Shown here one piece after another: positions 38,651 to 58,950 of a DNA stretch of 64,000 nt. The stretch lies in contig NZ_WWGX01000032.1 of the NCBI RefSeq assembly GCF_009862265.1, forward strand, positions 1 through 64,000, given 5' to 3'. A model generated the notes under the pieces. It saw nothing but the letters and a program-made list of their open reading frames with translations. It was not told the DNA's origin and ran no database searches. How positions within the stretch are numbered: position 1 is the stretch's first letter; each line of letters starts with the position of its first letter. Position numbers and translations under genes: made by a program. This stretch comes from Streptomyces sp. SID8352. Lineage in GTDB: Bacteria > Actinomycetota > Actinomycetes > Streptomycetales > Streptomycetaceae.

Positions 38651-39069
38651 CAGCCGGCGCCCCGTTCCCCGGTGCCCTCGGAGGGGATCGTGTAGAAGGG
38701 GAAGACAAGGTTGCGGGGGTCGTTGGTGGAGCGCACGGTGTAGTGGACGTCGATGTAGAGGGTGCCGGCCTCGACGGCGTCGAAGGCGACCACCACGTCG
38801 TCCACGGCGATGCGCGGTTCCCACCGCTCCAGCGCGGAGCGCACCTGGCGGGCGACGCGTCCGGCGGTGGCGCCGTCGCCCGGCGCGAAGACGTAGTCGT
38901 GGATGCCGCAGCCGAAGTCGGGGCGCATGGGGCGCTCGCCGGGCGCGGTGCCGAGGACGAGGCGGATGGCCTCCTCGATCTCCCGGTCCCGTTCGACCAG
39001 CGCGATGCCGCCGGTCGGGCCGACGCGCAGCGGGAAGGCCCAGCCGCGGCCGACGAACCGCTCGCTCAT
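38650..39069 (-). CDS. cis9: CIS baseplate wedge protein, gp25-like
   Basis: This 139-residue protein has the compact gp25/lysozyme-related fold pattern: EREIEEAIRLVLGTAPGERP-like residues (here VERDREIEEAIRLVLGTAPG) and MRPDFGCGIHDYVF, with DDVVVAFDAVEAG further on. gp25 proteins contact the sheath base and hold the wedge. ATG 39069 is used; GTG 39072 directly before it would add one residue, and both overlap the PAAR stop. Confidence 0.92.
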   Translation of the reverse strand: MSERFVGRGWAFPLRVGPTGGIALVERDREIEEAIRLVLGTAPGERPMRPDFGCGIHDYVFAPGDGATAGRVARQVRSALERWEPRIAVDDVVVAFDAVEAGTLYIDVHYTVRSTNDPRNLVFPFYTIPSEGTGERGAG

Positions 39070-39386
39070 CACAGGCCCCCGATCCGCACACTCTGGGCGC
39101 CGGTCAGGATGGTGGCCCCGCAGGCGGTGCGGTCACCGGCCCGCGCGGCCGGGAGCCCGCCCACGAGCACCGCGCCCCCGACGGCGGCGGCCGGGGAGGG
39201 CAGCACCACGTCGGCGGGGCCGAGGGCGGCGTGCGGGGGGAGCGGGCAGACGTGCAGGCTGCCCACGACGGCGGCGGGCAGACCGCCGATCAGCACCGTC
39301 GCCACGGCCGCGGCGGCACCGGGCGGCGGGGTGGTGATCAGACCGCCGTGACTGGTGGGGTCACCGGTACGGGCTGCGGCTGGCAT
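39069..39386 (-). CDS. cis10: PAAR-type spike tip protein
   Basis: This 105-residue protein has the PAAR pattern of repeated Pro-Ala-Ala-Arg-like turns: MPAAARTGDPTSHGG, TVLIGGLPAAVVGSLHVC, AVLVGGLPAARAGDRTAC and TGAQSVRIGGL. Two Cys and several His residues could bind the single metal at the tip. It caps the VgrG-like spike. Its stop overlaps the gp25-like start. A 310-bp gap separates it from the spike gene. Confidence 0.93.
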   Translation of the reverse strand: MPAAARTGDPTSHGGLITTPPPGAAAAVATVLIGGLPAAVVGSLHVCPLPPHAALGPADVVLPSPAAAVGGAVLVGGLPAARAGDRTACGATILTGAQSVRIGGL

Positions 39387-41523: not shown

Positions 41524-42242
41524 CGTTCCTCCTCGCCCGCTTCGTCCCGCAGCGCCGGCACCACCAGTTCGGTGCCGGGCACGAGCGCCATCGGGTCGTC
41601 GATTCCGTTGGCCTCCGCGATCACCCGCCAGACCGTCGCGTCGCCGTACTCCCGCCAGGCCAGCAGCGCCAGGCTGTCGCCGGCCACCACGGTGTGCGTG
41701 CTGCGGGCGGTGCGCGCGCCGGAGGTGGGGTTCTGGCCGCGCGGGTCGACGCTGGCCTCCTCGATGGACAGCGCGCAGGTGGCCCGCAGCGGCTTCCCGT
41801 CCACGTCGAACAGGGTGTAGGTGACCGAGAGGCTGGAGAGCACCCCGTCGAAGGCGGTGGTCCGGGCGGTGCCCCACTCGAACCGCACCCACGGGCTGGC
41901 CGGCTTCTTGCGGCCCAGGCTGGCCGGGGTCGGCACACACGCCTTCATCAGCTTCTCCACCGCCTGCTCCACGGCGTCGTCGTGGGTGGCGGTGGCGTCG
42001 AGGAACACCTCCAGGCTCAGCTCGCGCGGACCGCTGCCGACGAACTCGGGCAGCGCCGACTGGCCCGCCATCCGGGACGGGGAGCGGCGCCACTCGGTGG
42101 TCTTGCGCAGTTGGAGGGTGGAGGGGTTGAACTGGAGGTCCAGCCGCGCGATGGTCCCGCCGGGCTTCGCGCCGACCGAGGCGGGGGGCTCCTGAAGGGT
42201 GAGCTGAGCCCGGGCCCGGCTGGCGCGGACCGCTGGGGACAT
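41520..42242 (-). CDS. cis7: LysM-domain baseplate adaptor (gp53-like)
   Basis: This 240-residue protein has an N-terminal part with LQFNPSTLQLRKTTEWRR and DGVLSSLSVTYTLFDVDGKP, then a C-terminal LysM (about 180-228) starting HTVVAGDSLALLAWREYGD. In phage tails and CIS this protein links the inner tube to the spike. ATG 42242 follows AAGGAG at seven bases. It overlaps the spike gene. A roughly 98-bp gap with GGTCGGATCGGGTCGGATCG repeats separates it from the tube gene. Confidence 0.92.
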   Translation of the reverse strand: MSPAVRASRARAQLTLQEPPASVGAKPGGTIARLDLQFNPSTLQLRKTTEWRRSPSRMAGQSALPEFVGSGPRELSLEVFLDATATHDDAVEQAVEKLMKACVPTPASLGRKKPASPWVRFEWGTARTTAFDGVLSSLSVTYTLFDVDGKPLRATCALSIEEASVDPRGQNPTSGARTARSTHTVVAGDSLALLAWREYGDATVWRVIAEANGIDDPMALVPGTELVVPALRDEAGEEER

Positions 42243-42340: not shown

Positions 42341-42766
42341 TCAGGAGGGGCGGAGGCCCTCGTGGGCGATCTCCAGCGTCTCCACCGCCGCCCTGGAGTC
42401 GGCGGGGTCGAAGGACGGCCCCTGCCAGCGCACCGGGACGATCCCGAACACCTGCCAGCCGATGATCCGCGTCAGGTCCGGGCGGAGCGCCACGATCTCG
42501 CCGTCCTTGGGCTCCACCCGCCGCAGCGTCTCGTCCAGCCAGCGGCCGATCTTCGCGGTGTCGGCGGTGACCGGCCGGGTGAGCGTGATGTTGGACCACG
42601 TCACCCGGCCGGGGAGCTGCCAGGTGAACCCGTTGTTGCCGCCCTCGGCATAGCTCTCCATCTCGACCTCGGCTCCCATGCCGGAGCAGGTGTGGAAGGC
42701 GCCCAGGTCATTGCCGCCGATCGCGAGCCGGAAGAACACGCTCGTCGCGAAGATGCTGTCCGTCAT
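42341..42766 (-). CDS. cis5: CIS tube protein, second copy (initiator-type)
   Basis: This 141-residue protein of the gp19-like tail tube family has FATSVFFRLAIGGNDLGAFH, CSGMGAEVEMESYAEGG and VETLEIAHEGLRP. A second tube paralogue next to the LysM/spike genes usually forms the first tube ring on the baseplate. The main tube gene is at 47562. ATG 42766 is the start. Confidence 0.9.
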   Translation of the reverse strand: MTDSIFATSVFFRLAIGGNDLGAFHTCSGMGAEVEMESYAEGGNNGFTWQLPGRVTWSNITLTRPVTADTAKIGRWLDETLRRVEPKDGEIVALRPDLTRIIGWQVFGIVPVRWQGPSFDPADSRAAVETLEIAHEGLRPS

Positions 42767-43000: not shown

Positions 43001-46000
43001 TCAGCGGCGGCCGTCGTGCGGGCGGCCCGTGCGGTCCCGGCCGCGCCGCAGTTCGGTCCGGAGCAGGCGGGCCACCGGATCGAGCAGACGACGCGCCAGG
43101 TCGTCCAGGTCGAGACCGGGGTCCTGCGGCGAGTCCGGACCGGCCCCGGCGGAGCCGTGCGGCGGCGCGGGGGCCGGAGCGGGGGCGGGGGCCGGAGGGG
43201 GCGCGGGGGCCGCCCTGGCCGGTACGCCGGTGACGTCCCGCTGCACGGGCGTCCGCGCCGCCGCCCCGGCCGGTGCCGGGGGCCGGGCGGGTGCCGGGGG
43301 CCGAGCGGGGACGGGCCGGACGGGTGCCGGGGGCGGGGACGCCTGGGCCACACCGACCGGCAGCGTCCGCGCCGGTGCCGGGGGCGGCGCCGCCGGGGCC
43401 GCGGGCCGGACGACGGGGACCGCGCCGGGGGCCGGGCCGTGCGCCCGGTGGTGCCCCGGGGCGGCGGCCCGCTGCACGGGCGGGAGCGTCGCCGCGGGCG
43501 GCGGCGTACCCGTGCCGGGGCGCGGCGCGGCCGCACTCCGCGGGCCCGGCGCGCTCACGGCCGGCGGGCGCGGCACGATGCCGTGGGCGGAGGGCGGCGG
43601 GACCGTGCCGGGTCCGGGGCCCGAGCCGACCGGGCCGTGCGCGGACGCCGCCCGGCCCACGGGATCAAACGCGCCCGGCCAGCGCGCCGCCACCACCGGA
43701 CGGCCGGACGGACGCGGTGCGGCGGCGGGCACCGCCCCTTCCACGGGCCGGGTGTTGAGGGTCAGCGGCCGGGCGGCGAGCAGCGACAGGGCCGGCGACG
43801 CGAGGGCGCGCGGGGCGGGAACGCCTCCGCGCACCGCCCGCGCGACGACGACGGGACGCGCCGCCGTACGGGGCCGTTGACCGCCGCCTCCCGGGGACGG
43901 AGTGCCCGTCGGCCCGGCGGCGGGTCGCGCGAGGGCTCCGTAGCGGGGCGCGGAGGCCGAGGGAGCCGTGCGGGGCGGGGGCTCCGCCGCCGTGGGCGCG
44001 GTGGCTCCGCCGGGGGTGGCGCCGGGCGCGGTGGCCGTGGGCGCGGGACGCGCCGACACCAGGGGGGTGCCGGGAGCCCCGGGGTGCAGCACGGACCCGG
44101 ATGCCTCGGCCCCGGGAGCGGTGGGAACGGTGGGGGCGGTGGGGGTACGGGCCGCCTCGGCTCCCGGGCCGCTGCCCAGCAGCGGCGCCTCCCCCACCGT
44201 GGGCCGCACGGCGCCCACGGCCGGGGCGCGCTGGATCGAGGGCCCGCCGGACACGCCGGAGGCGGTCGCGGACGGGCGGGGCGGGGGGCCGTCGGGGGCC
44301 CGGCCGCCCCCCGCTCCGGCCCCCGCCGCACGCCGGTCGGCGGGACCGGCGCCCGCACGGGAGCCGTGGGAGCCGTGGGAGGAGCCATGGGGACCGGCGG
44401 GCTCCGCGCCGGGCGGAAGCGCGGGCAGCGGCGCGCCCAGCCCTCCGCGCGCCCTCGCTCCGGCACCGGGGCCCGGACCATCCGCAGCGGTCCCCGAGCC
44501 GCCCGGGACCCTGTCGGACGCGCCCGGGAAACCACCGGCAGGACCCCGCGCGCCGTCGGAACGGGACCGCAGGACGGGCAGCGCCGGACCGGGGGGAGCC
44601 GTTGGCACACCGGGGCCGTCCCGCAGGGGCGCCGCCGTGGGCGGCAGTTCCCCCAGCGGCGCGCCGAGCCCCGCGCGGCTCCGCACGGGGGTGCCTCCGG
44701 AGGGCGCCGGGCTGTCACCGTCCAGGTTCCGCACGGCGGTGGTCGGCGCCTCCCCCGGCACGGAGGCCCCCGCCTCGCGAGCGGAGGCCCCCGTCCCGTG
44801 GGCAGAGGTTCCCTTCCCGTGGGCGGAGGCCCCCGTCCCGTGGACCGGGGCGGCCGCAGGACCACCGCTCCCCGCCGCCGGAGCCCTGCCGCCGGACGCG
44901 CCCGCAGCCGTCCCGCCCCCGGACGCGCCGGGGCCCGTACCCCCGCCGGTCGTTCCCGGGGCATCGCCGGAAGGACCCCGCGCACCCTCCGCGGCGGGCC
45001 GTACGACGGGCAGCGCCGGAGCGGCCCCGGGGCCGACGGGCCCTCCGGGCGCGGAAGACGCGGAGTGCGCGGCGGCGGAGTGCGCGGCGGCGGAGTGCGC
45101 GGCGGCCGGGGCCGACGGCCCGCCCAACGGCGTACCGAGGGGCTCCCGGCCGCCGAGCGGGGCGCCGTCCCGGGAGGGCACCGGCGCACCGCCCGCCCCC
45201 GGCCGGGCGGCGGACGCCGTCGCCCCGGGCGCCGCAGCACCACCGGGTGCCGGAGCGGGGGCGGGGCGCAGTGCGGGAAGACGGCGTACGGGTGCCGCCG
45301 GGCGCCGGGCGACCGTCGTCGGGGGCCCCACGGGACGGACCGGAACGGCCGCACCGCTCCCGGCGGCGCGCGCACCGCCCCCGGTGGAACCCGGCCCGGA
45401 CGCCCCCGGCCCGGCGGCGCGCACGGCAGGGTCGGCCGTGCCCGGTGCGGGCGGTCCCGACTCCGACCCCGGCACCACCCGCACCGCCCGGACCACCGGG
45501 AGTTCCAAGGACCCCGCGAGGGCCCGCCCGGCCCCGTCGGGTGCCAGGGCCGCTCCGGCACCGGGCAGCGCGGACCGCTGCACGGCGGGGGGCGAGGAGG
45601 TGGAAGGGGACAACGGGGACCGGGTGAGGGGAGCACCGCCGGAGACGAGACCGCGCTCCGCCGGGCCCCGGCCGGGCTCCCCCGCACCACGGACACCCTC
45701 CGGCCCCGCGGTGCCACCCGGCGCCGTACGCCCGCCCGGCCCGTCCGCCCCATCCGGTCCGGACGCACCACCACCGCCCCCGGACGCACCCGCGCCCGCA
45801 ACACCCGCACCGGCACCGGCACCGGCACCGGCACCGGCACCGGCACGAGCCGAACCGCTCCCGCCGCCCGAGCCCCCGGGCACCCCGGGCACCCCGGGAC
45901 CAGCCGGGCCACCCGAGCCGCCGGAGGCCCCCGGCGCCCCCGGCCCGACCCGCTCACCGTGCCCGCCGGCCGACGGAGCCGTACCGCGCGCGCCCCGCGG

Positions 46001-46888
46001 GACGCCCGGCGCACCGGGACCGGGCGCACCGCCCGGACTCCCCGTTCCCGTGCCGCCCTCCGCGCCGGGGGACGCCTCCCTGCGCCCCGCGCCCGGCCCC
46101 GGCGGCGTACCGCCGCGCCGGGGCGCCCTGGCGGTGGTGGGCGTGGCCCCGGCGGACCCGCCGCCGGACCGCCCGGCCCCGGAAGGGCCCGACGGGGTCC
46201 CGGATCCGCCCGGCCCGCCCGCCGGTGTGCCCGGCGCCGGTGAGGTTCCGGACGCGGTCCCCGAGGGTCCCGTGCCGCCCGGCCCGCCCCGGGTCACCGG
46301 CGGGCGGGGCGCCCGCTCCGGGGCCGACACGGAGGGCCCGTCCGGCGTCACCGGTGTTTCACGTGAAACCGCCGCTCCCCGCGCCCTGCCCGGCGCCCGC
46401 GCGGCCCGCCCGTCCGAGGACGGCGCGCCCTCCCCCGGGCCAAGGTCCTCCGCGCCCGGCCCGCCGTCGTTCTCCGGCCGCAGCGCGCGGAGCAGCAGCG
46501 GTCCCCCGTCGTCGCGGGCGGCCCGCGGGGACGGCGGGCGGGTGACGCCTTGGACCAGTCCGGTGGGCGCCGTGGGCAGCAGGGCATGGCCGAGGCCGGT
46601 GTCGAAGGCGGGGTTCTGCCAGGCGGCCAGGCGCGCGCGGAAGGCGAGGCCGTCGCTGACGCCGAGCGGGGCGCGGGCCACGGTCAGCACCGGCGGGGCG
46701 GTGGCGCGCCAGCCGCCGTCCCAGTCCCCGGGCACGGTGGAGGAGCCCCCGCCGCTGGACGGATCCGGCGGCGTCGGCGGACCGGTCCGCGGGGAGCCGT
46801 CCGCCCCGGCCGTCCCGGCGGACGGTGCCGCCGGACCGGCCACCGCCCCCCGGGAGGACCGGCGGCGCCACATCTCCCGCCATGCCAT
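43001..46888 (-). CDS. Very large disordered Pro/Ala/Gly-rich CIS-associated protein
   Basis: This 1295-residue protein lies in the middle of the CIS operon, between the DUF6760 micro-gene (3 bp upstream) and the second tube gene. Residues 1-120 look folded (GLAFRARLAAWQNPAFDTGL, LVQGVTRPPSPRA). The last 40 residues form a helix (LDLDDLARRLLDPVARLLRT). Everything between is low complexity, with repeats such as HSAAAHSAAAHSA, GAGAGAGAGAG (from a hexanucleotide run at about 45810-45850) and SAHGKGTSAHGTGASA. Homologues are usually labelled extensin-like. With folded ends, constant position and no other candidate, a length-measuring or tube-filling role is possible, but tape measures are normally helical. 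No enzyme motif is seen. Confidence 0.75.
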   Translation of the reverse strand: MAWREMWRRRSSRGAVAGPAAPSAGTAGADGSPRTGPPTPPDPSSGGGSSTVPGDWDGGWRATAPPVLTVARAPLGVSDGLAFRARLAAWQNPAFDTGLGHALLPTAPTGLVQGVTRPPSPRAARDDGGPLLLRALRPENDGGPGAEDLGPGEGAPSSDGRAARAPGRARGAAVSRETPVTPDGPSVSAPERAPRPPVTRGGPGGTGPSGTASGTSPAPGTPAGGPGGSGTPSGPSGAGRSGGGSAGATPTTARAPRRGGTPPGPGAGRREASPGAEGGTGTGSPGGAPGPGAPGVPRGARGTAPSAGGHGERVGPGAPGASGGSGGPAGPGVPGVPGGSGGGSGSARAGAGAGAGAGAGAGVAGAGASGGGGGASGPDGADGPGGRTAPGGTAGPEGVRGAGEPGRGPAERGLVSGGAPLTRSPLSPSTSSPPAVQRSALPGAGAALAPDGAGRALAGSLELPVVRAVRVVPGSESGPPAPGTADPAVRAAGPGASGPGSTGGGARAAGSGAAVPVRPVGPPTTVARRPAAPVRRLPALRPAPAPAPGGAAAPGATASAARPGAGGAPVPSRDGAPLGGREPLGTPLGGPSAPAAAHSAAAHSAAAHSASSAPGGPVGPGAAPALPVVRPAAEGARGPSGDAPGTTGGGTGPGASGGGTAAGASGGRAPAAGSGGPAAAPVHGTGASAHGKGTSAHGTGASAREAGASVPGEAPTTAVRNLDGDSPAPSGGTPVRSRAGLGAPLGELPPTAAPLRDGPGVPTAPPGPALPVLRSRSDGARGPAGGFPGASDRVPGGSGTAADGPGPGAGARARGGLGAPLPALPPGAEPAGPHGSSHGSHGSRAGAGPADRRAAGAGAGGGRAPDGPPPRPSATASGVSGGPSIQRAPAVGAVRPTVGEAPLLGSGPGAEAARTPTAPTVPTAPGAEASGSVLHPGAPGTPLVSARPAPTATAPGATPGGATAPTAAEPPPRTAPSASAPRYGALARPAAGPTGTPSPGGGGQRPRTAARPVVVARAVRGGVPAPRALASPALSLLAARPLTLNTRPVEGAVPAAAPRPSGRPVVAARWPGAFDPVGRAASAHGPVGSGPGPGTVPPPSAHGIVPRPPAVSAPGPRSAAAPRPGTGTPPPAATLPPVQRAAAPGHHRAHGPAPGAVPVVRPAAPAAPPPAPARTLPVGVAQASPPPAPVRPVPARPPAPARPPAPAGAAARTPVQRDVTGVPARAAPAPPPAPAPAPAPAPPHGSAGAGPDSPQDPGLDLDDLARRLLDPVARLLRTELRRGRDRTGRPHDGRR

Positions 46889-46891
46889 GTG

Positions 46892-47050
46892 CTAACCGCC
46901 TTCGTTCACACGGGTGTTGATCCGGGCGATCTCGTCCACCCACTGGCGGCGCTCGCCATGGGTCAGGCCGAGGATCTCCTCACGGGGCCAGTGGAAGTGA
47001 TAGGCGATGTACGCGATCTCCTCCCGGAGCCGGGGAAGGGCGTACGTCAC
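46892..47050 (-). CDS. DUF6760-type micro-protein of the CIS operon (52 aa)
   Basis: Start GTG 47050 overlaps the TGA of the 172-residue gene (GTGA); stop TAG is at 46892-46894. The product starts MTYALPRLREEIAYIAYHFH, followed by WPREEILGLTHGERRQWVDE and a short tail ending INTRVNEGG. This small helical protein with the aromatic YHFHWP core is conserved at the same place, after the tube gene, in many phage-tail-like clusters (DUF6760). It may be the counterpart of phage tail assembly chaperone fragments; function unproven. The strict overlap with both neighbours supports it. Confidence 0.85.
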   Translation of the reverse strand: MTYALPRLREEIAYIAYHFHWPREEILGLTHGERRQWVDEIARINTRVNEGG

Positions 47051-47565
47051 GATTCCCCCAGGCGCCCACCCGAGAGGTCGACCTCGAAACCGCCCGAGCA
47101 GTGCGGGCAGGTGACCGCCGCGCGGGTGTGGCCCTCGCTGTTGACGCGCCGGTAGAAGTCCTGGAGGAACGCCACATCGGTGGCGTACATCCGCTCCACC
47201 ACCCCGGCGTGCACATCGGTGACGGTGCCGATCCGGGTGATCACCTGGCTGAGCAGCACCACGCTGAGGTACGCCGGGTTCTCCTTGACCCGCAGGTCGA
47301 TCTGGGGCCGCAGCTCGTCGCGGGCCGTGGCCAGCCGCATCGAGCCGTGGCGGTGCACCGTGCCCGCCTCGTCCACGTATCCGCGCGGCAGCTCGAACTC
47401 GAACTCCGTGCGCAGCCCGTGCTCCTCCCGGTGCCCGGCGGCCGGGGAGGACGCGGCCGGAGGGGGTGCGGGGGATGCGGGGGCGGCCGGCTCCGCCGTC
47501 CGGGCGGGGTCCGTGGCCCGGAGGATCTCCTCCACGTTGCCCGCGGTCACCGTGCGCCGTCTCAT
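47047..47565 (-). CDS. CIS tail-assembly-like protein with CxxC
   Basis: This 172-residue protein has an N-terminal 60 residues that are Ala/Pro-rich. The conserved part has FEFELPRGYVDEAGTVHRHG, SMRLATARDELRPQIDLRV and YLSVVLLSQVITRIGTVTD. It ends with a possible half zinc-binding TCPHCSGGFEVDLSGG. Similar proteins lie just after the tube gene in many phage and CIS clusters, where tail assembly chaperones are encoded. ATG 47565 overlaps the tube stop (ATGA), and the stop overlaps the DUF6760 start. An assembly role is inferred from position. Confidence 0.75.
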   Translation of the reverse strand: MRRRTVTAGNVEEILRATDPARTAEPAAPASPAPPPAASSPAAGHREEHGLRTEFEFELPRGYVDEAGTVHRHGSMRLATARDELRPQIDLRVKENPAYLSVVLLSQVITRIGTVTDVHAGVVERMYATDVAFLQDFYRRVNSEGHTRAAVTCPHCSGGFEVDLSGGRLGES

Positions 47566-48002
47566 TCGACGATGATCTCCTCGAACACGATCGTGACGGA
47601 CTCGGTGGCCGGGGACGACTCGCCGGCCCGCAGCGAGGGGCCCTCCCACCGCGAGGCCCAGCCCTGCATGAGCTGGATGCGGCGGACGGTGTTGCCCTCG
47701 GAGTCCTTGATCTCGATGGTCAGGTTCTGCCGCGCGGAGTTCACGGCCCCGTTGTTCAGGGTCTCCTTGATCCACTTGGTGAACTCGCTGCTCTGGTCGA
47801 GCCCGCGGGTGATGGTGATCTCACCGGCCTGCCGCGCCCCGGGCTGCTTGCGGATGATCTGCTTGCCCTCGGCGCTGACCTGCTTGACCTCGACGACCTC
47901 CTCCTCGACCGTCAGTCCGCTGATCTCCTGGACCGACTCGACGAGATAGCCGCCGAGCTGCACGCCGAAGACATGGGTGGAAAGCGCGTCGCCCGTTGCC
48001 AT
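47562..48002 (-). CDS. cis1: CIS inner tube protein
   Basis: This 146-residue protein of the T4 gp19-like tube family has VFGVQLGGYLVESVQEISGL, EITITRGLDQSSEFTKWIKE and VTIVFEEIIVE, with alternating beta-strands. It forms stacked hexameric rings inside the sheath. ATG 48002 is preceded by AAGGTGA and lies 33 bp after the sheath stop. The second, diverged tube gene (42341) is for the baseplate end. Confidence 0.95.
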   Translation of the reverse strand: MATGDALSTHVFGVQLGGYLVESVQEISGLTVEEEVVEVKQVSAEGKQIIRKQPGARQAGEITITRGLDQSSEFTKWIKETLNNGAVNSARQNLTIEIKDSEGNTVRRIQLMQGWASRWEGPSLRAGESSPATESVTIVFEEIIVE

Positions 48003-48035: not shown

Positions 48036-49595
<1,560 letters not shown>

Positions 49596-50018
49596 GCGCG
49601 CTCCTTAGCGTCCTGGCGGGGTCTGGCGGGTCACCTGTGCCCAGGCCGAGTCTGCGGGGCGGGCGGGGAGCGGACCAGGGGCCGTCGGCCCCGGCCGGGG
49701 GCAAGACCGCTGCCCCTCCCTGCCGGTGCCGACCGCCCGGCCGCCCCCCGGTGCTGCCCCCGCGCTGTCCGCACGGACCTGGACGCCTCCCGGACGGGGA
49801 GCCGGAGTCCGGCGGGCGGAGCGGGGCGTGGTGCCGCGTGATGCGCGGGGAGGGTGCCCCCGCGGACGGGGGCGACGGGCGGAACGCGGCGTGATCCGCG
49901 GGAGGGACGCGCCTTCGGACGGGGACCGCGGGCGCCGCGGGGCGGGGGCACGGCGGGCATCGGGACGGCCGGGCGGGACGGTCGGCGGAACGCCCGCGCG
50001 CGGCCCGTCGCGGCCGTG
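49596..50018. promoter_or_regulatory. Gene-free region before the sheath operon
   Basis: These 423 bp follow the AAA+ gene stop and precede the sheath start, so they must contain the main promoter of the structural operon, or read-through from the ATPase operon. The DNA is GC-rich with GGGACG-type repeats (about 49800-49940). I do not see a convincing -10/-35 pair or a strong hairpin. Confidence 0.4.
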
Positions 50019-52352
50019 TCACGCCCCCGTCGCGTCCGCCAGGTAGGGGCCGAACTCCGTCTCCAGGACCAGGCGGCCCAGCTTGCGGTACTCCTGCGCG
50101 ACCGCCGCCATCAGTTCCCGCATGGTGAGCGGCGCTCCGGACTCGGCCGCCAGATAGGCGGCGGTGAGGGCGCAGGCCCGGATGGAGCCGCCGGCGAGTT
50201 CGAAGCGGGTCGCGCAGAAGTCGAGGTCGAGGTCTCCGCCCCGGGGCAGCCGGTCGCCCAGGCAGCGGTCCCACAGCGCGCGCCGCTGGTCCGGGTCGGG
50301 CACCGGGAAGTCGGCCACCACGTCCAGCCGGCGGGTGAACGCCTCGTCCAGGTTGGCCCGCAGATTGGTGGTCAGCACCGCGATCCCGTCGAACGACTCC
50401 ATCCGCTGGAGCAGGTACGCCGACTCGATGTTGGCGTGCCGGTCGTGCGCGTCCTTGACCTCCGCGCGCTTGCCGAAGATCGCGTCGGCCTCGTCGAAGA
50501 GGAGCACCGCGTTGACCGCCGACGCCTCGGTGAAGATCCGCTCCAGGTTCTTCTCGGTCTCCCCCACGTACTTGTCGACCACCGTGGACAGGTCGACGAC
50601 GTACAGGTCCATGCCCAGGTCCGCCGCGACGACCTCGGCCGACATGGTCTTCCCGGTGCCCGATCCGCCCGCGAACAGGGCGATCACCCCGCGCCCCCGC
50701 CCGCCGCCGGGCCGCATCCCCCACTGCCCGAGGACCCGCTCGCGGTGGCGGGCCCGCAGCGCCAGTTCGCGCAGCCGCCGGTGGGTCGCCGGGGGCAGGA
50801 CCAGGTCGTCCCAGCCGACGCCCGGCTCCACCCGGCGGGCGAGCCGGTCGAGCCCGGCGCCGTTCTGCGCCCGCACGGCGGTGCGCAGGTCCTCCGGGGT
50901 GACCGGGCGGCCCGCGAGGGCGGCGGTACGGACGGCCGCGTCGGCGGCGCGGCGCACCTGGCCCCCGTCCAGCCGGTGCGCGGCGACGGCACGGGCGAGC
51001 GCACCGGCGTCACCGGCCGCCTCCCCGGCACCACCGGGCGCGAGGCCGTCGGCGGCCCGCTCCAGGGCATGCCGCCAGCGCTCGGCCTGCCGCTCGGGGG
51101 CGGGCGCCGGCACGGAGAGCACGACGGGGGTGTCGGCCGCCCACGCCGGGTCCCAGCCGTCGCCCCCGTGCACCACCAGGGGGCGCCCGCGCAGCGCGGC
51201 GCACAGCGTCCCCAGGGCGCGGGCGCGTTCGGCGGGCGGCTCGGGCAGCGCCTCCAGCGGTCCGAGGACGACCCCGGCGCCGGTCAGCCGCGCCTCCAGC
51301 GCCACGACCCGGGCCAGGTCCGGCAGGTCGGCGGAGCGCCGGGAGAGCGCCGCCGCGTCCAGCACCAGCGGGGGCGGCCCGGCGGCGCGCAGGGCGGCGA
51401 CGGCCAGGCCCGCCGCGTCGCCGCCCAGGCCGCGCAACCGGACCAGCCCGGCGCCCGCGCCGGCCGCGTCGGCCACCCGGCGGGCCGCGGCCGGGTCGGC
51501 GGTGGGGTCCCCGGGCACGTCGGCGAGCACCCCGGCGAGCCGGGCGTCGGGCCGGGCGTCGCCCAGCAGGTGCGCGGTGACCCGGTCGGGGACCCGCAGC
51601 ACCCGGGACAGCGGCGGCAGCCCGGGGTCGGCGACCTCCAGCAGACCGCCCGCGACCAGCGGCGACCCGGGGGCGAGCCGGAACCGGGCGGGCGAGACCC
51701 CGGAGAGCCCGCACAGTTCCAGGGCCAGCCCGGTGGTGGGGCGGCGGCGCGTCAGGTCGTCGTGGAGGTAGCCGTAGAGGCGCTCGAAGCGGGCGTCCAG
51801 GTCGGGCGCGAGGGCGACCAGCAGCAGGTCCAGGTCGAGCGGGGCGAGGCCGAACCGCCGGGCGAGGACGCCGAGCACGGAACCGGGCGGCGGGTGCGGG
51901 GCGTCGTGGGCGGGCAGGCCGAGCCCGCCCGGCTCGTCCAGCAGCCGGGCCACGGCGGCAGGCGAGAGGTACTGGCCCCGGTAGGGGTCGTCGGGGTCGG
52001 GGTCGGCGGCGCGCCGCGCGGCCACCGCCTGCCGCACCCGCTCCTCGACGGCCGCCAGCCGCTCCCAGAGGTACGCGGCCCCGGGACCGCCGACGGCGGC
52101 GCCGTCAGCATCCCCACCGACGGCGGCGCCGTCAGCGACGGCCCCCGGCGGGGACGGAGGGTCCGGGGCACCGGCCGTGCCCGGGACACCGGCCGCGCCG
52201 TCAGCGACGGACCCCGGCGGGAACGGGACGTCCGGGGCACCCGCGGCACCGTCGGTGTCCGGGGCGCCGGCGGTGCCCTCCGTACCGGAGCGGGCGTCCC
52301 GGTCCTCCGCGCGGTCCCGCGCGCGGCCCCCCGGCAGCACGATGTGCGTCAC
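50019..52352 (-). CDS. cis15: AAA+ ATPase of the CIS
   Basis: This 777-residue protein has an Asp/Gly/Ala/Pro-rich tail in the first 85 residues. A winged-helix-like N-domain follows (about 90-300, FGLAPLDLDLLLVALAPDLD), then the AAA+ core with Walker A FAGGSGTGKTMSAEV (about 562-576), Walker B AVLLFDEADAIFGKR (about 612-626), sensor 1 AVLTTNLRANLD and arginine finger DEAFTRRLDVVADF. ATPases of this kind are constant members of eCIS loci (Afp15/Pvc15) and are needed for assembly. ATG 52352 overlaps the DUF4255 gene stop (ATGA). Confidence 0.93.
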   Translation of the reverse strand: MTHIVLPGGRARDRAEDRDARSGTEGTAGAPDTDGAAGAPDVPFPPGSVADGAAGVPGTAGAPDPPSPPGAVADGAAVGGDADGAAVGGPGAAYLWERLAAVEERVRQAVAARRAADPDPDDPYRGQYLSPAAVARLLDEPGGLGLPAHDAPHPPPGSVLGVLARRFGLAPLDLDLLLVALAPDLDARFERLYGYLHDDLTRRRPTTGLALELCGLSGVSPARFRLAPGSPLVAGGLLEVADPGLPPLSRVLRVPDRVTAHLLGDARPDARLAGVLADVPGDPTADPAAARRVADAAGAGAGLVRLRGLGGDAAGLAVAALRAAGPPPLVLDAAALSRRSADLPDLARVVALEARLTGAGVVLGPLEALPEPPAERARALGTLCAALRGRPLVVHGGDGWDPAWAADTPVVLSVPAPAPERQAERWRHALERAADGLAPGGAGEAAGDAGALARAVAAHRLDGGQVRRAADAAVRTAALAGRPVTPEDLRTAVRAQNGAGLDRLARRVEPGVGWDDLVLPPATHRRLRELALRARHRERVLGQWGMRPGGGRGRGVIALFAGGSGTGKTMSAEVVAADLGMDLYVVDLSTVVDKYVGETEKNLERIFTEASAVNAVLLFDEADAIFGKRAEVKDAHDRHANIESAYLLQRMESFDGIAVLTTNLRANLDEAFTRRLDVVADFPVPDPDQRRALWDRCLGDRLPRGGDLDLDFCATRFELAGGSIRACALTAAYLAAESGAPLTMRELMAAVAQEYRKLGRLVLETEFGPYLADATGA

Positions 52353-53095
52353 GGCCGGCGCTCCCCCCGGCGACGGCGGGCGGGGGCGGGGCCCCGGTCC
52401 CTGGGGGCGGCGAAGCCCTCCGCGCCCGGGTCACCGGTCTCCGTGTAGCGCAGCCGCCGCCCCGGTGCCGTGCCGCCGCCCTCGCCGTCCCGGGCGGAGC
52501 CGTCGACGCGCTGGGCGGAGCCGTCGACGCGCTGGGCGGAGCGGACCACCAGTCCCTCGGTGACCGGCGGCGCGACGGCCCGGGTGACGCCCGCGAGCGG
52601 TGCCCGCACCCGCACGCCGAGCGACGCCTTCAGCTCACCGCCGAGCGCCGACCACACGTCGGCGGCCTCCGGCGCGTCCAGCCCGGTCCCGGCGGTGTCC
52701 AGCGCCACGGTCAGACCCAGCTCCGCGAGGGAGCCGGTGAGCAGCCGGGCGGGCAGGGTGTCGGCGGCGGCGAGGCCGGCGAGCACCTGGGACAGCAGCC
52801 GGTGCTCGTCCTGCGGGCGGCCCGCCCACGCCGTGACCAGGTACGTCAGGTGGAACCAGCGCGGCGGGGAGCGCCGCGCCACGAGGTGCCCCTCCTCGTC
52901 GTACACCTCCTCGGTGCCGCTGCCGCGCCGGACCGCGTCCTCGCGCAGGTCGTAGAGGAAGACGCAGACCGTGGGGGCGGTGCGGCGCGCCGCCCAGTCC
53001 CGGGTGGGGGCGTCGAAGACGACATCGACGCCGGAGGCCTCCAGGCCGGACTCCGTGAGCAGGCGCCGCAGCGCCTCGTCCACCTCGTGGATCAC
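52349..53095 (-). CDS. cis16: DUF4255 (Pvc16-type) tail terminator protein
   Basis: This 248-residue protein starts IHEVDEALRRLLTESGLEA and has VVFDAPTRDWAARRTAPTVC, FLYDLREDAVRR and RWFHLTYLVTAWAGRPQDEH. This is the conserved DUF4255 N-terminal domain of tail terminator/sheath cap proteins in eCIS. The C-terminal 60 residues are basic and low complexity, with a duplicated SAQRVDG unit from a direct DNA repeat (about 52500-52545). GTG 53095 overlaps the stop of the beta-propeller gene, and its stop overlaps the ATPase gene. Confidence 0.92.
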   Translation of the reverse strand: MIHEVDEALRRLLTESGLEASGVDVVFDAPTRDWAARRTAPTVCVFLYDLREDAVRRGSGTEEVYDEEGHLVARRSPPRWFHLTYLVTAWAGRPQDEHRLLSQVLAGLAAADTLPARLLTGSLAELGLTVALDTAGTGLDAPEAADVWSALGGELKASLGVRVRAPLAGVTRAVAPPVTEGLVVRSAQRVDGSAQRVDGSARDGEGGGTAPGRRLRYTETGDPGAEGFAAPRDRGPAPARRRRGERRP

Positions 53096-56000
53096 CGGCG
53101 GTTCACCTCGTCCGGCGGCTGGACGGTGCCGCTGACCACCAGGAAGTCCGTGGTCACCGGTGAGAACCCGGGGCCCCGGGCGGTGATGGTCCGCGGCCCC
53201 GTCCGGTCCTTGGCCAGGATCAGGAGCTGGCCGATGAAGGTCCCGTCGGCCAGCGGCACGGTGGGCGCCGCCGCCGCGGTGATCCCCGGCTTCCAGGCGA
53301 ACCGGACCGGCACCCCCGGCGGGAAGTCCCGCCCGCGCACCGAGGTGACGAAGCCGGGCTTGCCGATGGCGGGCACGGCCACGATGCGCGGCTGGAGGAC
53401 GCGCAGCCGCTGCCGGGCGGTGTTGTCGCGCGGGTCGGCGTCCGTGCCGGTGGTGGTGAGGACCGCGGTGGCCTCGCCGGTGAACGCCCTGCGGGGACTG
53501 AGCACCACCGTCAGCACGGCGCTCCCGCCGGGCCGCAGGTCGGGCAGGGCGCACACCCAGGAGGCGTCGCAGCCGGGCGGCGGCCCGTTGCCGGGCACGC
53601 CCGGGGGCAGGCCGATGCGCAGCCGGAGCCCGGTGGCGAGCGCGTCGCGCCCGTTGCGCACGGTGTAGGTGACCACGACGCGTCCGCCGACGTAGCCGGG
53701 GTTCGGCTGGGCCGTGACGCGCACGCCCGGTCCGGCCCGGGGCGCGGGCGGCGGTGGCGGCACGGGCACGGGGGGCACGGGGGGCGCGGGCGGCGCGGGC
53801 GGCGCGGGCGGCACCGGGACCGAGGACGTCGGGGTGGGCGTCGGGGTGGGCTCGGGGGTCGGGGTCGGGGTGTCGGTCGGAGTCGGGGTGTCGGTCGGCG
53901 TCGGGGTGTCCGTCGGCGTCGGGGTGGGCTCCGGAGCCTCCCGTACGGGCACCACCGTCCGCCCGGCGTTGTCCTCCGGCCGGGGGTCGAGCACCGCGCC
54001 GGTGACCGACCAGTCGACGGGCGCGTCCCCCGGGGTGACCCCCGTCAGGGTCACGTCCACCGGCACGGCCGCGCCCGGCGGCACCACGCCCACGTCGCAC
54101 TGGAGGGACTCCGGGTCGCAGACGCCGTCCGGCGGGGTCAGCCCGGTGACGCGGGCCCCGGGCGGCGGGGCGACGGTCAGCCGGGTGCCGGGCGAGGCGG
54201 CCGGGCCCTGGTTGACGATCTCGACGCGGACCGTGGTGGTCTCCCCGACGATGACCTCGCCGGTGGTGGCGGGGGCACGGACCGCGAGGTCCACCCACTG
54301 CTGGACGCTCGGCTCCTTCTGCCGTCCCGGCAGCCCGCTGGTGATCCGGGTCAGCGCGCCGGACTCGATGTCCAGCAGCTTCAGGTCCTCGGGGGAGTTG
54401 GGCTCCGGCTCGGGCCGGGCGCTGATCACCAGTCCGGTGCCGTCGGCCGTCCAGGCCGCGTCCCGGGGCTGGTAGGGCCCGGTGGCCTCGGGCAGTTCGC
54501 GGCGGCAGCCGTCGTCGGTGCCGCGGGCCGCGACGGGCAGCAGGACCCGGCAGCCGTCGCCCTCCGGGGAGACCAGCAGGATGCCGTTGCGCTCGTCGAA
54601 CAGCCCGGCGCCGTTCTTGCGGTTGAAGGCGATGCCGCGGCCGTCCGGGGAGAACGCCGGGCTGTCGTCGATGACCTCGCACTCCCCCGGGCAGACGGCG
54701 GCGCTCAGGTCGCGCTGCCGGGTCAGGTCGTCCACCGGCGCGGTCCAGATGTGCTTGTTGCCGCCGTTCCCGTTGATCACCTGCCGCCGGGTGAAGGCGA
54801 GCACCGTGCCGTCGGGAGACCAGGCGGGCTGGGCGTCGTCCCCGGCGAACTGTCCGGCCGGGGGGACGACCTCCCCGAGCAGCTCCCCGGTGGCGGCGTC
54901 CGCCACCAGCACCCGGCGGGGTCCCGCGGTGTCGTCGGAGCGGCCGGGCGAGGTCCGGGTGAAGGCGAGGAACCTGCCGTCCGGGGAGAACGCGGGGTCG
55001 GTGTCCCAGTCCTCGGGGCCGCGCCCGGCGAGCGGCACGGGGGCCGGATTGGCGCCGTCGGCGTCCACCAGCCAGATCCGCTCGACCCGCTTGCCGTCGA
55101 CGGTCTCGAAGCGGGTCACCACGATCCGGCGCCCGTCGGGGGTGTAGCTCTGCCGCTCGTGCCAGGGGTCGTAGCCGGGCGCGGGCAGGAACAGCGGGTT
55201 CTTCCGCGGGTCGAGGTTGGTGTCGGCGGCCGGGTCCTCGGTGAGGATGGTCAGCCCCAGGTCGCGGGGGTCGGAGCCGTCGCCCCGGACGTCCTGGAGG
55301 GTCGCCACGTGCGGGCCGTCGGGACCGGCGGCCGTGGTCCGCTCGACGACGGTGCCGCCGCCGTAGAGGGGGCCGAGCCAGGTGGGGGAGGTGATCTCGC
55401 GGTCCTCGCTGAGCACCACCTCCGGGGTGTCCGCGGAGTGCGCGGTCGTCCGGAACACGTGCCTCCAGTCGCCCTCGCAGTCGCAGGTCCGGTCGGGGCT
55501 GAGGAACAGCAACTGGTTCCCGTCGGGCATCCAGGCCGCCCCGTGGGTGTCCCAGCCGGCCTGCGCGCCCGCGAGCAGCGGCTGGTCGGTGGTCCCGTCG
55601 GTCACCCGCAGCCGGGAGGTCCGCTGCCCGGGAGCGGTGGCGGTGTAGGCGATCAGGCCGCGGTGCGCGGGGTCGTCGACGGGGTTCCAGACCGGCTCGG
55701 TGGCCGCGCCGGCCGCCGGGTCGCTGACCCGCACGGCCGCGCCCCCGGCCAGCGGGCGGACCAGGATCTGCCGCCCGGCGTACGTTCCGTCGTCCCCGGA
55801 GTACGCGAGGCGGCCCCCGTCGGGGGAGACGGTGGGGTGCTCCTCGTCACCGGGGGTGTCGGTGAGCCGGGTCAGCCCGGTGCCGTCGGTGCGCACCAGC
55901 CAGAGGTCGCGCTGGCGGCCGCCGCCGGGCCCGCCGGGTTCGTCCGAGTCGAAGACCACGGCCGCGCCGTCGGGCGTCAGCCGGGGGTGCGCGGCGGTAC

Positions 56001-56370
56001 GGCCGCTGGTGAGGCGGCGGACGGAGCCGTCGGGGGCGCGCAGATAGACCTGGGCGGTCCGCTCGTCGCGGCGGCTGGTGAAGACCAGGGTGTCGCCGAG
56101 GGCGGACGGCTGGGTGTCGAAGTGGGCCGGTCCCCCGCCGAAGAACGGATCGCTGCGGGTGTCGTCGGCGACCCGGCCGAGGCTGCGGTGCCGGGTGCCG
56201 GCGAAGGCGATGCGGATGTCCGGGGCGGCCACCGCGGCGGCACCCGGCGCGGGCCCGGGACCGGCACTGCTCTGCCCGGACGCCGACACCCCGAGCAGCG
56301 GGACCAGGAGCAGCAGTGCGGCGCCGAACCCGCCCGGGCGGCGCCGCCCGCCAGGGCCAGCGGTTCCCAT
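53092..56370 (-). CDS. Exported PD40/beta-propeller protein with Ig-like domains, CIS-linked
   Basis: This 1092-residue protein has a signal peptide or membrane anchor in the first 35 residues (GAALLLLVPLLGVSASGQ). Many TolB/PD40-type blades follow (about 60-640), each with patterns like SPDGRFLAFTRTSPG or TPDGAAVVFDSDEPG. A DUF11-like Ig domain comes next (about 660-770), then a TPTPTDTPTPTDTP spacer from 24-bp DNA repeats, a Pro-rich hinge and two more beta-domains. ATG 56370 fits GAGGGGA six bases upstream better than GTG 56373 or 56400. It is the first gene of the operon that continues into DUF4255 and the AAA+ gene by four-base overlap, so it is tied to the CIS. How an exported protein serves a cytoplasmic particle is unclear. 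Confidence 0.82.
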   Translation of the reverse strand: MGTAGPGGRRRPGGFGAALLLLVPLLGVSASGQSSAGPGPAPGAAAVAAPDIRIAFAGTRHRSLGRVADDTRSDPFFGGGPAHFDTQPSALGDTLVFTSRRDERTAQVYLRAPDGSVRRLTSGRTAAHPRLTPDGAAVVFDSDEPGGPGGGRQRDLWLVRTDGTGLTRLTDTPGDEEHPTVSPDGGRLAYSGDDGTYAGRQILVRPLAGGAAVRVSDPAAGAATEPVWNPVDDPAHRGLIAYTATAPGQRTSRLRVTDGTTDQPLLAGAQAGWDTHGAAWMPDGNQLLFLSPDRTCDCEGDWRHVFRTTAHSADTPEVVLSEDREITSPTWLGPLYGGGTVVERTTAAGPDGPHVATLQDVRGDGSDPRDLGLTILTEDPAADTNLDPRKNPLFLPAPGYDPWHERQSYTPDGRRIVVTRFETVDGKRVERIWLVDADGANPAPVPLAGRGPEDWDTDPAFSPDGRFLAFTRTSPGRSDDTAGPRRVLVADAATGELLGEVVPPAGQFAGDDAQPAWSPDGTVLAFTRRQVINGNGGNKHIWTAPVDDLTRQRDLSAAVCPGECEVIDDSPAFSPDGRGIAFNRKNGAGLFDERNGILLVSPEGDGCRVLLPVAARGTDDGCRRELPEATGPYQPRDAAWTADGTGLVISARPEPEPNSPEDLKLLDIESGALTRITSGLPGRQKEPSVQQWVDLAVRAPATTGEVIVGETTTVRVEIVNQGPAASPGTRLTVAPPPGARVTGLTPPDGVCDPESLQCDVGVVPPGAAVPVDVTLTGVTPGDAPVDWSVTGAVLDPRPEDNAGRTVVPVREAPEPTPTPTDTPTPTDTPTPTDTPTPTPEPTPTPTPTSSVPVPPAPPAPPAPPVPPVPVPPPPPAPRAGPGVRVTAQPNPGYVGGRVVVTYTVRNGRDALATGLRLRIGLPPGVPGNGPPPGCDASWVCALPDLRPGGSAVLTVVLSPRRAFTGEATAVLTTTGTDADPRDNTARQRLRVLQPRIVAVPAIGKPGFVTSVRGRDFPPGVPVRFAWKPGITAAAAPTVPLADGTFIGQLLILAKDRTGPRTITARGPGFSPVTTDFLVVSGTVQPPDEVNRR

Positions 56371-56517
56371 CACAGTTCCCCTCGCTGTCCGGTGCGGCAC
56401 CGGAGGGTGCCCCCGGCCACCCTGCCCGCCCGGGTGCGGGGGCGGCAGGGCACCGGGGGCCGTGTCCGGGGAAGCGCGCGGTGTGCGTTCGGGCAGTGCC
56501 CGCTTCCCGGGGGGCCG

Positions 56518-57357
56518 TCAGATCAGCCCGTTGCGCAGCGCGTAGCCCACGGCATGGGCCCGGTTGCGCAGTTGCAGCCGGGTCATCACCTCGTGGAGCA
56601 CGTTCTTGACGGTCCGTTCGGAGTACGCGGTCGTGCGGGCGATCTCGGCGGTGTCCATGCCCTCCGACACCAGGCGCAGCATGTCCGCCTCGCGGCTGGT
56701 GAGCAGGGACAGTCCGCGCGGGTCGAGCGCCGAGCGCTGGAGCCCGCCGACATGGGTGAGGAGCTTGCCGAGCAGGTCGCCGGGGAGGACGCCCTCGCCG
56801 TTGGCCATCGCCAGCACCAGGTGGAGCAGCCGGTCCTGGTCGGCCTCGGCGCGGCGCAGCACCGCCACCACCCCGCACTCGATGACGCGCTGCAGCGCGC
56901 CGGGGCCGAGGGTGCCGACCACCAGGCCGGTGCGGGTGGCGGTGTTGTACCGCAACTGGTCGAGCAGGGCGGCGACGTCGTCGTCCACGCCGTCCACCAC
57001 GACGAGGGAGGCGTGGGCGCGCTCGGCGTCGGCGTCGGCGAGCAGGTCGACCTCGGGGCGGGACCGTAACTGCTGGACGACGCCGACCCGCAGCACCGGG
57101 TCGGCGGCGTACACCGCGACGGTCACCCGTTCCGGCCGGTCGGCGCGGGGGTGTTCGGAGCGGGAGCGGTCGGCACGGGGGCGGTCGGCGCGGTGGTGCT
57201 CCGCGCGGGCGCGGTCCTGGCCGGCCGGCGCGGAACCGCCTGTCCGGGGTGCGGAGCCGGCCTGGACCGGAACGTGGGGAACGGTGACGTGGGGAACGGC
57301 GGCGGACACGGCCGGAGCGGCGTCCTGAGAGCCCGGAAAGCTCTGAGAGCGTGGCAT
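56518..57357 (-). CDS. LuxR/NarL-type regulator of the CIS locus, TTA codon
   Basis: This 279-residue protein has a first 75 residues that are a low-complexity tail with repeated RADRP units. About 77-190 is receiver-like (VTVAVYAADPVLRVGVVQQL, HASLVVVDGVDDDVAALLD). It lacks the acidic pair at the start and the usual Lys, so phosphorylation is doubtful. The LuxR helix-turn-helix is at about 210-275 (LTSREADMLRLVSEGMDTAE, YSERTVKNVLHEVMTRLQL). Codon 97 is TTA (57067-57069 on the plus strand), making it a candidate bldA target. It lies 147 bp upstream of the beta-propeller/ATPase operon on the same strand and diverges from the membrane-protein gene at 57556. Control of the CIS genes is inferred from position. 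Confidence 0.85.
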   Translation of the reverse strand: MPRSQSFPGSQDAAPAVSAAVPHVTVPHVPVQAGSAPRTGGSAPAGQDRARAEHHRADRPRADRSRSEHPRADRPERVTVAVYAADPVLRVGVVQQLRSRPEVDLLADADAERAHASLVVVDGVDDDVAALLDQLRYNTATRTGLVVGTLGPGALQRVIECGVVAVLRRAEADQDRLLHLVLAMANGEGVLPGDLLGKLLTHVGGLQRSALDPRGLSLLTSREADMLRLVSEGMDTAEIARTTAYSERTVKNVLHEVMTRLQLRNRAHAVGYALRNGLI

Positions 57358-57555
57358 GTGTTACCTGTCCTGTGGTTTCCGTGGGTGACGCGGGAACGGC
57401 ACGGCCCCCCCGTGCGCGCCGCATCCACTGGGGACGGCTCTGTCCGGCCCCCGCTCCGGTGCGGGCGCCTCCGTCGCTTCCCGGGCATCATGCCTGCCCC
57501 GGTGTTGCCCTCGCGCTCCTCGTCGAGCCCTCGGGCACCCCCCTACCGTGGCCGT
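57358..57555. promoter_or_regulatory. Divergent promoter region, LuxR regulator and Ig-like membrane protein
   Basis: These 198 bp separate the two starts. It includes GTGTTACCTGTCCTGTGG beside the regulator start. No strong palindrome or hexamer pair stands out. If the membrane-protein gene starts earlier, at ATG 57490, the shared region shrinks to 132 bp. Confidence 0.4.
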
Positions 57556-58950
57556 GTGACGCCTTCTGCAGCCTCTTCCGGCCCCGGTGCTCCAGGTCTC
57601 GACCTCCCGGCGGTGACCGTGGCCCCGGGCGGCACCGCCGCGACCAGCGTGACCGTCCGCAACGACAGCGACATCGTCGAGGCGTACGGCCTGGAGGTCG
57701 TCGGTGACTGCGCGGCGTGGGCGACCGTCGAGCCCGCCCGTGTCTCCCTCTACCCGGGCACCTCGGAGACGGTGACGATCCGGCTGGACCCGCCCCGTTC
57801 ACCGGAGGTCCGCGCCGGGGACGTGCCGCTCGGCGTGCGGGTGCTGCCCGCCGAGCACCCGGAGGCGGTGCGGGTCCTCGAAACCACCGTGCACGTCGAG
57901 GAGTTCCGGGAGCTGCGCGCCGAACTCGCCCCGCGCCGCCGCCGGGGCTGGCTGCGCGGCCGGTACCGGCTGGCGGTGCGCAACCAGGGCAACGCGCCGG
58001 TGCGGGTGGGCTTCGCGGCCGGGCAGCAGGGCGAGGAGCTGAAGTTCGCCTTCACCCCGGAGCGGACGCCGCTGGAGCCGGGCGAGTCGGCGGAGACCGG
58101 GCTGCGGGTGCGCACCGGCAGCCCGGTGTGGTTCGGCTCCCCGGTGGTGTGGCCGTTCACGGTGGAGGTCACCGACGCCCCGGCGGACGGCGCGGACGGC
58201 ACCCCGGCCCCGGGCACCGTGCCGGAGGAGGTTCGGGCGCCGCTGGAGGCGGAGTTCGTGCAGATCCCCGTCTTCCCCAAGTGGCTGCTGGTGGTGCTGG
58301 CGGTGCTGCTGGCCCTGCTGCTCGCCTGGTTCGCGCTGGTCCGCCCGACCGTGCGCAGCGCCGCCGAGGAGGCGGCCACCAAGGCGGTCCAGCCCCGGCC
58401 GACCCCCGCCGGGGGTCCGTCCGCGAGCACCGGCACGGGTTCCGGCACCGGCTCCGGCACCGGCACCGGCGAGGACACCGGCACGGCGCCGGGCGCGGGC
58501 GGCGGCCCGGGCACCCGGCCCGGCGGCCAGGGACAGGGGCAGGGACAGGGCCAGGGCACGTCGGCGGGGCCGGGCGCGGGCGGTGCGGGCGGCGGCCAGT
58601 TCTCCACGACCATCGACCAGAAGACGTCCGGAGGCCGGACGGCCACCGGCACCTACGAGGTCCCCGAGAACAGCGTCTTCAGCGTCACGGACATCGTCGT
58701 CGCCAACTTCCAGGGCGACGAGGGCGTGCTGACGATCTCCTTCGGTGACCGCAAGATCACCACCATCGCGCTGGAGACCTTCCGTAACCAGGACTACCAC
58801 TGGGTGACCCCCATCGAGATCCGCGAGAAAGACACCGTGACCATGGAAGTGACGTGCGGAAGGCCGGGCACGCCGGCCACCGGCCGCCGGGCACCGGCCT
58901 GTCATGAGGTTCTCAACGTGAGCGGCACGATGGCCACTATCACGCCGTGA
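57556..58950 (+). CDS. Single-span membrane protein with cytoplasmic Ig-like domains, CIS-linked
   Basis: This 464-residue protein has two Ig-like beta-sandwiches at about 10-115 and 120-215 (VTVAPGGTAATSVTVRNDSD, YRLAVRNQGNAPVRVGFAAG). One membrane helix (about 240-262, WLLVVLAVLLALLLAWFALV), a Gly/Thr/Gln linker (GTGSGTGSGTGTG, GQGQGQGQGQG) and a C-terminal beta domain (about 355-464, VFSVTDIVVANFQGDEGVL) follow. With no signal peptide, the Ig domains should face the cytoplasm, where the CIS particle is. Start GTG 57556 is chosen at the beginning of the Ig-like part; no clear RBS is seen, and ATG 57490 in frame is possible. It diverges from the LuxR gene. The function is not known. Confidence 0.78.
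   Translation: MTPSAASSGPGAPGLDLPAVTVAPGGTAATSVTVRNDSDIVEAYGLEVVGDCAAWATVEPARVSLYPGTSETVTIRLDPPRSPEVRAGDVPLGVRVLPAEHPEAVRVLETTVHVEEFRELRAELAPRRRRGWLRGRYRLAVRNQGNAPVRVGFAAGQQGEELKFAFTPERTPLEPGESAETGLRVRTGSPVWFGSPVVWPFTVEVTDAPADGADGTPAPGTVPEEVRAPLEAEFVQIPVFPKWLLVVLAVLLALLLAWFALVRPTVRSAAEEAATKAVQPRPTPAGGPSASTGTGSGTGSGTGTGEDTGTAPGAGGGPGTRPGGQGQGQGQGQGTSAGPGAGGAGGGQFSTTIDQKTSGGRTATGTYEVPENSVFSVTDIVVANFQGDEGVLTISFGDRKITTIALETFRNQDYHWVTPIEIREKDTVTMEVTCGRPGTPATGRRAPACHEVLNVSGTMATITP

Follow-up and report, generated by a model that had tools for sequence, protein, structure and literature searches.

The gene at 56518-57357 on the minus strand of the window (the whole 64,000-nucleotide stretch of Streptomyces sp. 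SID8352 DNA analysed here) probably encodes a bldA-gated, cluster-specific activator, a receiver-like member of the LuxR family that would act on two promoters of a contractile injection system (CIS) through a shared inverted repeat. In the mechanism we posit, the regulator would be made only when the bldA product, tRNA-Leu(UAA), is available, owing to a UUA codon in its message; it would bind GGGCA-N7-TGCCC at two promoters, with the centre of the repeat about 65 bp ahead of each transcript start, and would thereby activate the CIS structural operon (that of the sheath) along with a divergent gene for a membrane protein. In clusters of the S. coelicolor type, it is SCO4263, an unrelated neighbouring regulator of the LAL type (large ATPase-type LuxR regulator), that bears the codon instead. 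We infer binding to the repeat, activation, the transcript starts in this genome and the limitation by bldA from sequence.

The first-pass annotation had placed a TTA codon in this regulator, and the sequence agrees: the open reading frame begins with an ATG at 57357, and the plus-strand TAA at 57067-57069 reads TTA on the minus strand as codon 97, within VVQQLRSR. The N-terminal ~76 residues of the 279-aa product are of low complexity and weakly conserved, making the start codon uncertain; codon 97 is in frame and, by alignment, lies within the conserved core, where the homologous codon is TTA in 22 of the 121 regulators that we compared. The genome carries the corresponding tRNA-Leu gene (L207:1490-1574, anticodon taa). 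Across the 19 minus-strand open reading frames of the cluster and the divergent gene, the sole other TTA is codon 17 of the open reading frame at 46359-46943 (194 aa, with no Pfam match). Elsewhere in the window, a gene-like open reading frame at 5509-7863, also without a Pfam match, bears TTA at codon 480.

Pfam recognises the GerE helix-turn-helix of the regulator (3.8e-12), and Response_reg finds no match in it at E<=0.001. An AlphaFold2 model of the 204-residue core (pLDDT 85) predicts a receiver-like domain followed by a LuxR helix-turn-helix, and its best Foldseek matches are response regulators of the NarL/FixJ type (E 2e-11), with full-length TM-scores of ~0.4-0.6, which we read as differing domain placement. 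In two sets of 15 and 17 sequences drawn from both clades, the helix motif SERTVKN hardly varies; in the VVVD motif, the Asp is not invariant across 17 regulator sequences. Among the matches listed, the named nearest relatives are nearly all from Streptomyces. In its predicted fold the protein resembles the orphan or atypical NarL/FixJ-type response regulators, of which BldM and WhiI are Streptomyces examples, but it is set apart by the missing Pfam Response_reg match and by a VVVD Asp that is Glu in some relatives.

The regulator belongs to a cluster in which Pfam identifies sheath, two tube, hub, Baseplate_J, AAA and Pvc16 genes, all on the minus strand: the sheath protein (48036-49595; Phage_sheath_1, 1.3e-27), tube proteins at 47562-48002 and 42341-42766 (Phage_T4_gp19, 2.8e-25 and 1.8e-29), a baseplate hub or spike protein (39697-42093; Phage_base_V and Phage_GPD), the baseplate wedge protein (36692-39091; Baseplate_J, 6.2e-14), an AAA ATPase (50019-52352; AAA and WHD) and a Pvc16-like gene (52349-53092; Pvc16_N, 3.7e-41). 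Adjoining the regulator is a gene for a PD40 beta-propeller and DUF11 protein (53092-56400; Pfam); its start, like those of the AAA and Pvc16-like genes, is uncertain. The divergent gene (57556-58950, plus strand, GTG start) encodes 464 aa with Ig-like matches below the Pfam cut-offs, one hydrophobic stretch seen by eye and a Gly/Gln-rich linker; every one of the 61 loci closest to the window's has a homologue, the S. coelicolor-type cluster has two, and the protein resembles a membrane partner or accessory component of the CIS. Between both tube genes, the open reading frame at 43001-46888 is very GC-rich with an indistinct codon-position signal, and may encode a structural protein of the CIS with repeats, for instance a tape measure.

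For comparison we used 121 distinct regulators out of 125 rows drawn from the matches listed, 61 of them window-like (identity of at least 64%) and 60 more distant. The inclusion cuts were 40% identity and 170 residues, which L045 and L051-L054 failed; the rows dropped were L041 and L010, which have a short core (L010 has TTA at the codon homologous to 97), and L124 and Sx, near-copies of Sc. L055-L084 were omitted since the same loci are counted in rows with longer flanks, L055 being the window itself. The presence of a LAL was judged within the flanks fetched around each regulator: by this measure none of the 61 window-like loci has a LAL neighbour, against 26 of the 60 distant ones; these 26 take in L129, with the C-terminal part of a LAL only, and L141, whose LAL is 3.9 kb away.

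The candidate operator was first seen by aligning sheath upstream regions. GGGCA-N7-TGCCC lies at 49699-49715, centred 112 bp from the sheath ATG, and again at 57483-57499, between the regulator and the divergent gene; the window holds three copies against 0.15 expected, and the 7.78 Mb genome holds 17 exact copies (a reversed pattern used as a control, and not palindromic in the same way, occurs 28 times). In the looser form RGGCA-N7-TGCCY, the repeat stands upstream of the sheath gene in 51/51 window-like, 14/15 LAL-bearing and 5/8 other loci, the sheath regions of L122 and L140 being among those from which it is absent. Upstream of the regulator it is found in 59/61 window-like, 0/26 LAL-bearing and 11/33 other distant loci. 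Other spacers of 4-10 occur in none of the window-like sheath regions and in 0-2 of the window-like regulator regions; beyond the window-like group the repeat is looser, a spacer of 8 appearing in 2/15 LAL-bearing and 5/8 other sheath regions. This looseness, and the absence of the repeat upstream of so many distant regulators, count against our preferred reading. The third exact copy (52166-52182) lies inside the AAA open reading frame and has no counterpart at the same position in the other listed window-like loci; we set it aside as an operator, as it is probably there by chance. In 29 of the 61 window-like loci another RGGCA-N7-TGCCY lies downstream, ~1.6 kb from where the regulator core begins; in the window this place is taken by the PD40 gene and has no such repeat. 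Among the papers on slpR and CIS listed from one open-access collection, none describes an operator for these regulators in its title or abstract opening.

At both promoters the repeat keeps an almost fixed distance from a -10-like element. That of the sheath operon, AGACT (49649-49653, minus strand), starts at the 46th base after the repeat, and that of the divergent gene, TACCGT (57544-57549, plus strand), at the 45th. Across window-like loci, AGRCT is found at offset 46-47 in 47/51 sheath promoters, and the looser AGRST is found there in 11/14 LAL-bearing and 3/5 other sheath promoters; for the divergent gene, TANNNT falls at offset 44-46 in 58/59 window-like and 11/11 other repeat-bearing loci, while any TANNNT at offsets 20-43 is found in 1/59 and 0/11, respectively. 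Within this genome, TANNNT or AGRCT, the two forms scored, stands at the offset only at the two CIS promoter repeats and at none of the 15 other exact repeats, namely 14 outside the window and that at 52166-52182. The -10-like element of the divergent gene is so close to the GTG start that its mRNA may be leaderless. A repeat centred near -65, upstream of the promoter and at near-constant spacing, is typical of activators. In the S. coelicolor-type genome 98 bp separate the centre of the repeat from the sheath ATG downstream of it; with the SCO4253 transcription start placed 32 bp upstream of the ATG in a passage of PMC2000904, our own arithmetic puts that centre at -66.

The first-pass annotation had also considered that the regulator might activate the CIS, and had named three regions in which its binding could be looked for. 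Two of these, 49596-50018 and 57358-57555, do hold the repeat with its near-fixed -10 spacing; the third, 56371-56517, holds no exact repeat. Judged from sequence, we regard the support for CIS control by the window regulator as strong and indirect. Two further ideas about its own expression were abandoned: autoregulation through 57483-57499 is unsupported, as the conserved promoter elements lie on the side of the repeat that faces the divergent gene, and for sigma-E control, GAAC-N15/18-SGTC was found upstream in 6/61 window-like loci against a shuffle mean of 3.7, and is absent in the window.

That bldA governs the CIS through a TTA-bearing LuxR-family regulator, as the first-pass annotation proposed, has been shown by experiment, but for a non-orthologous gene, SCO4263/slpR. 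According to parts of PMC2000904, the SCO4251-4253 proteins and the SCO4252-4253 transcripts of S. coelicolor require bldA, and SCO4263 bears a TTA codon and is needed in turn, its deletion removing SCO4253 transcription and the SCO4251-4253 proteins; a section of PMC8505568 reports that slpR and bldA mutants of S. lividans are without particles. The same paper (Nagakubo et al. 2021, PMC8505568) reports that no slpR homologue was found in the CIS clusters of S. griseus and S. avermitilis, where regulation might be different. Our starting assumption, that the window gene is orthologous to SCO4263, was rejected when the published sequence of the single sigma-E promoter needed for sco4263 transcription (an excerpt of PMC6767563) led us to a LAL gene. 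Searched in 392 genomes, that promoter gave one exact match and two with one mismatch; in the matched genome, an ATG lies 38 nt past the sigma-E box, the distance printed in that part of PMC6767563. The SCO4263-type gene of the exact-match genome encodes 1299 aa with AAA_16 and GerE domains and has TTA at codon 142. Divergent from it is a TTA-free gene for a 236-aa GerE protein, 49.5% identical to the window regulator; after it come genes homologous to the Pvc16-like and AAA genes of the window. Because of this match and this neighbourhood, the window regulator is, on sequence comparison, the counterpart of SCO4263's neighbour and not of SCO4263. Both architecture and orthology speak against membership of the SCO4263/slpR family: the window gene encodes 279 aa with GerE only, as against ATPase plus GerE, and its best match within the S. 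coelicolor-type locus is the small neighbour. What the window gene shares with SCO4263/slpR is an in-frame TTA in a CIS-linked gene of the LuxR family, SCO4263/slpR being needed together with bldA for the CIS (passages of PMC2000904 and PMC8505568); but SCO4263/slpR is a large LAL ATPase regulator and the window gene encodes a small protein with a receiver-like domain and a helix-turn-helix.

A survey of 213 Streptomyces genomes (PMC10327506) counts on average 177 ORFs with TTA in each genome, lists 18 orthogroups in which half or more of the species have the codon, and reports that Transcription and Signal Transduction genes are often enriched; a TTA codon in a regulator is therefore unsurprising by itself. 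Among the regulators compared here, the codon homologous to 97 is TTA in 17 of the 61 window-like and 5 of the 60 more distant regulators; in the window-like group it is otherwise TTG (17) or CTG or CTC (27). TTG at this site is also found outside Streptomyces, in Actinopolymorpha (L037) and Saccharothrix (L042), and therefore need not be a remnant of TTA. Elsewhere in the core, nine more aligned positions carry TTA in window-like regulators, such that 27 of the 61 bear a core TTA somewhere, amounting to 29 of 1955 Leu codons. In the same loci, the control genes yield TTA at 0/1562 (sheath), 0/1629 (AAA) and 1/1322 (Pvc16 gene) Leu codons, or 1/4513 together, a density ~67 times lower: TTA is more frequent in window-like regulators than chance would have it, since 29/1955 stands against 1/4513. 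On the other side, 34 of the 61 lack a core TTA, although five of these have one immediately upstream of the core, in a stretch of open frame that may or may not belong to the gene, its start being uncertain, and because of these 34 the sequences imply that bldA dependence cannot be universal across the small-regulator family.

Core TTA and a LAL neighbour seem to avoid each other: the regulator bears a core TTA in 1/26 loci with a LAL and in 40/95 without (13/34 among distant loci without one), and the LAL itself has TTA in its N-terminal part in 20 of 25 readable cases. On a protein tree built by a quick method, 8 changes are required for the LAL label and 19 for the TTA label; independent pairs number only 4 on supported branches (8 on all branches), and the sign test gives p=1. 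The exclusion is a clade-level association, without independent replication on the tree, and therefore not statistically independent evidence.

Could the regulator control the CIS while its TTA is a neutral rare codon of no regulatory weight? The 34 regulators without a core TTA and the 27 with CTG or CTC at codon 97 would be expected of such a codon, but neither the ~67-fold excess over the control genes nor the way in which members differ in the codon affected, with 19 changes of label on the tree, sits easily with neutrality, and we think it unlikely. It is also conceivable that the repeat belongs to another factor, a LAL or a global regulator, with the window regulator acting elsewhere or indirectly. 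Indeed, SCO4263, a LAL, is needed for SCO4253 transcription (part of PMC2000904), and the repeat is present at the SCO4253 promoter in the S. coelicolor-type genome. In LAL-bearing loci the LAL itself could be the repeat binder, because the sheath repeat is shared there and, in the portion of PMC2000904 concerned, the LAL is needed. As an account of the window, though, this reading meets several obstacles: the repeat is present in loci with or without a LAL, the small regulator being common to both locus types; none of the 61 window-like loci has a LAL in its fetched flanks, and the repeat is still there; the closest LAL match that this genome offers has 34% identity and lies on a different contig; and repeats with a correctly placed -10-like element are confined to the CIS locus. 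We rate it as quite improbable.

The direction of control might, in principle, be reversed, so that the regulator is a repressor and bldA would shut the CIS off in development. LuxR-family members include repressors, and direction is unreadable from sequence alone. Set against this are the position of the repeat near -65, upstream of the promoter at near-constant spacing, and the analogous system, which passages of PMC2000904 and PMC8505568 describe as activated through bldA; we consider repression very unlikely. Activation by a bldA-gated window regulator is the reading that we prefer, and it would have company among the pathway-specific TTA activators actII-ORF4 and redZ and in adpA, where bldA gates a pathway via its regulator (as set out in part of PMC2000904); but the target here would be the CIS, and the rare codon lies at another position and on another of the neighbouring regulators.

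The general idea, bldA gating of the CIS via a TTA-bearing regulator, is known; what is new here is which gene is involved, the operator-like repeat, and the way in which the rare codon falls on different neighbouring regulators. A survey of eCIS regions (PMC10020575) reports, in the sections concerned, a TTA gene in 42 of 56 regions and 22 TTA genes that are putative regulators; it differs from the present analysis in that those sections name only SCO4263, leave regulator families unseparated and give no operator. Casu et al. 2023 (PMC10066040) has no word beginning bldA, TTA, LuxR or regulator in its main text. One slpR-less type of CIS cluster gains here a candidate regulator and a candidate operator with exact coordinates, making the question of its regulation directly testable, and some caution is due when a TTA-bearing CIS 'LuxR regulator' is met, as it is not always SCO4263. 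We could speculate further that the bldA checkpoint on Streptomyces CIS is evolutionarily mobile wiring, carried by the LAL in one lineage and by the small regulator in others, where it would be gained and lost at changing codon positions while the geometry of operator and promoter stays nearly fixed; on this broader idea we are evenly balanced. If it is true, selection would act on bldA control of the CIS and not on a particular gene or codon.

A second, more distant type of CIS-linked regulator, with TTA at aligned position 82, was also seen (L092, L094-L097, L099, L100 and L102), and most of the genomes with this type also have a window-like regulator (G066, G070, G075, G115, G116, G127 and G147).
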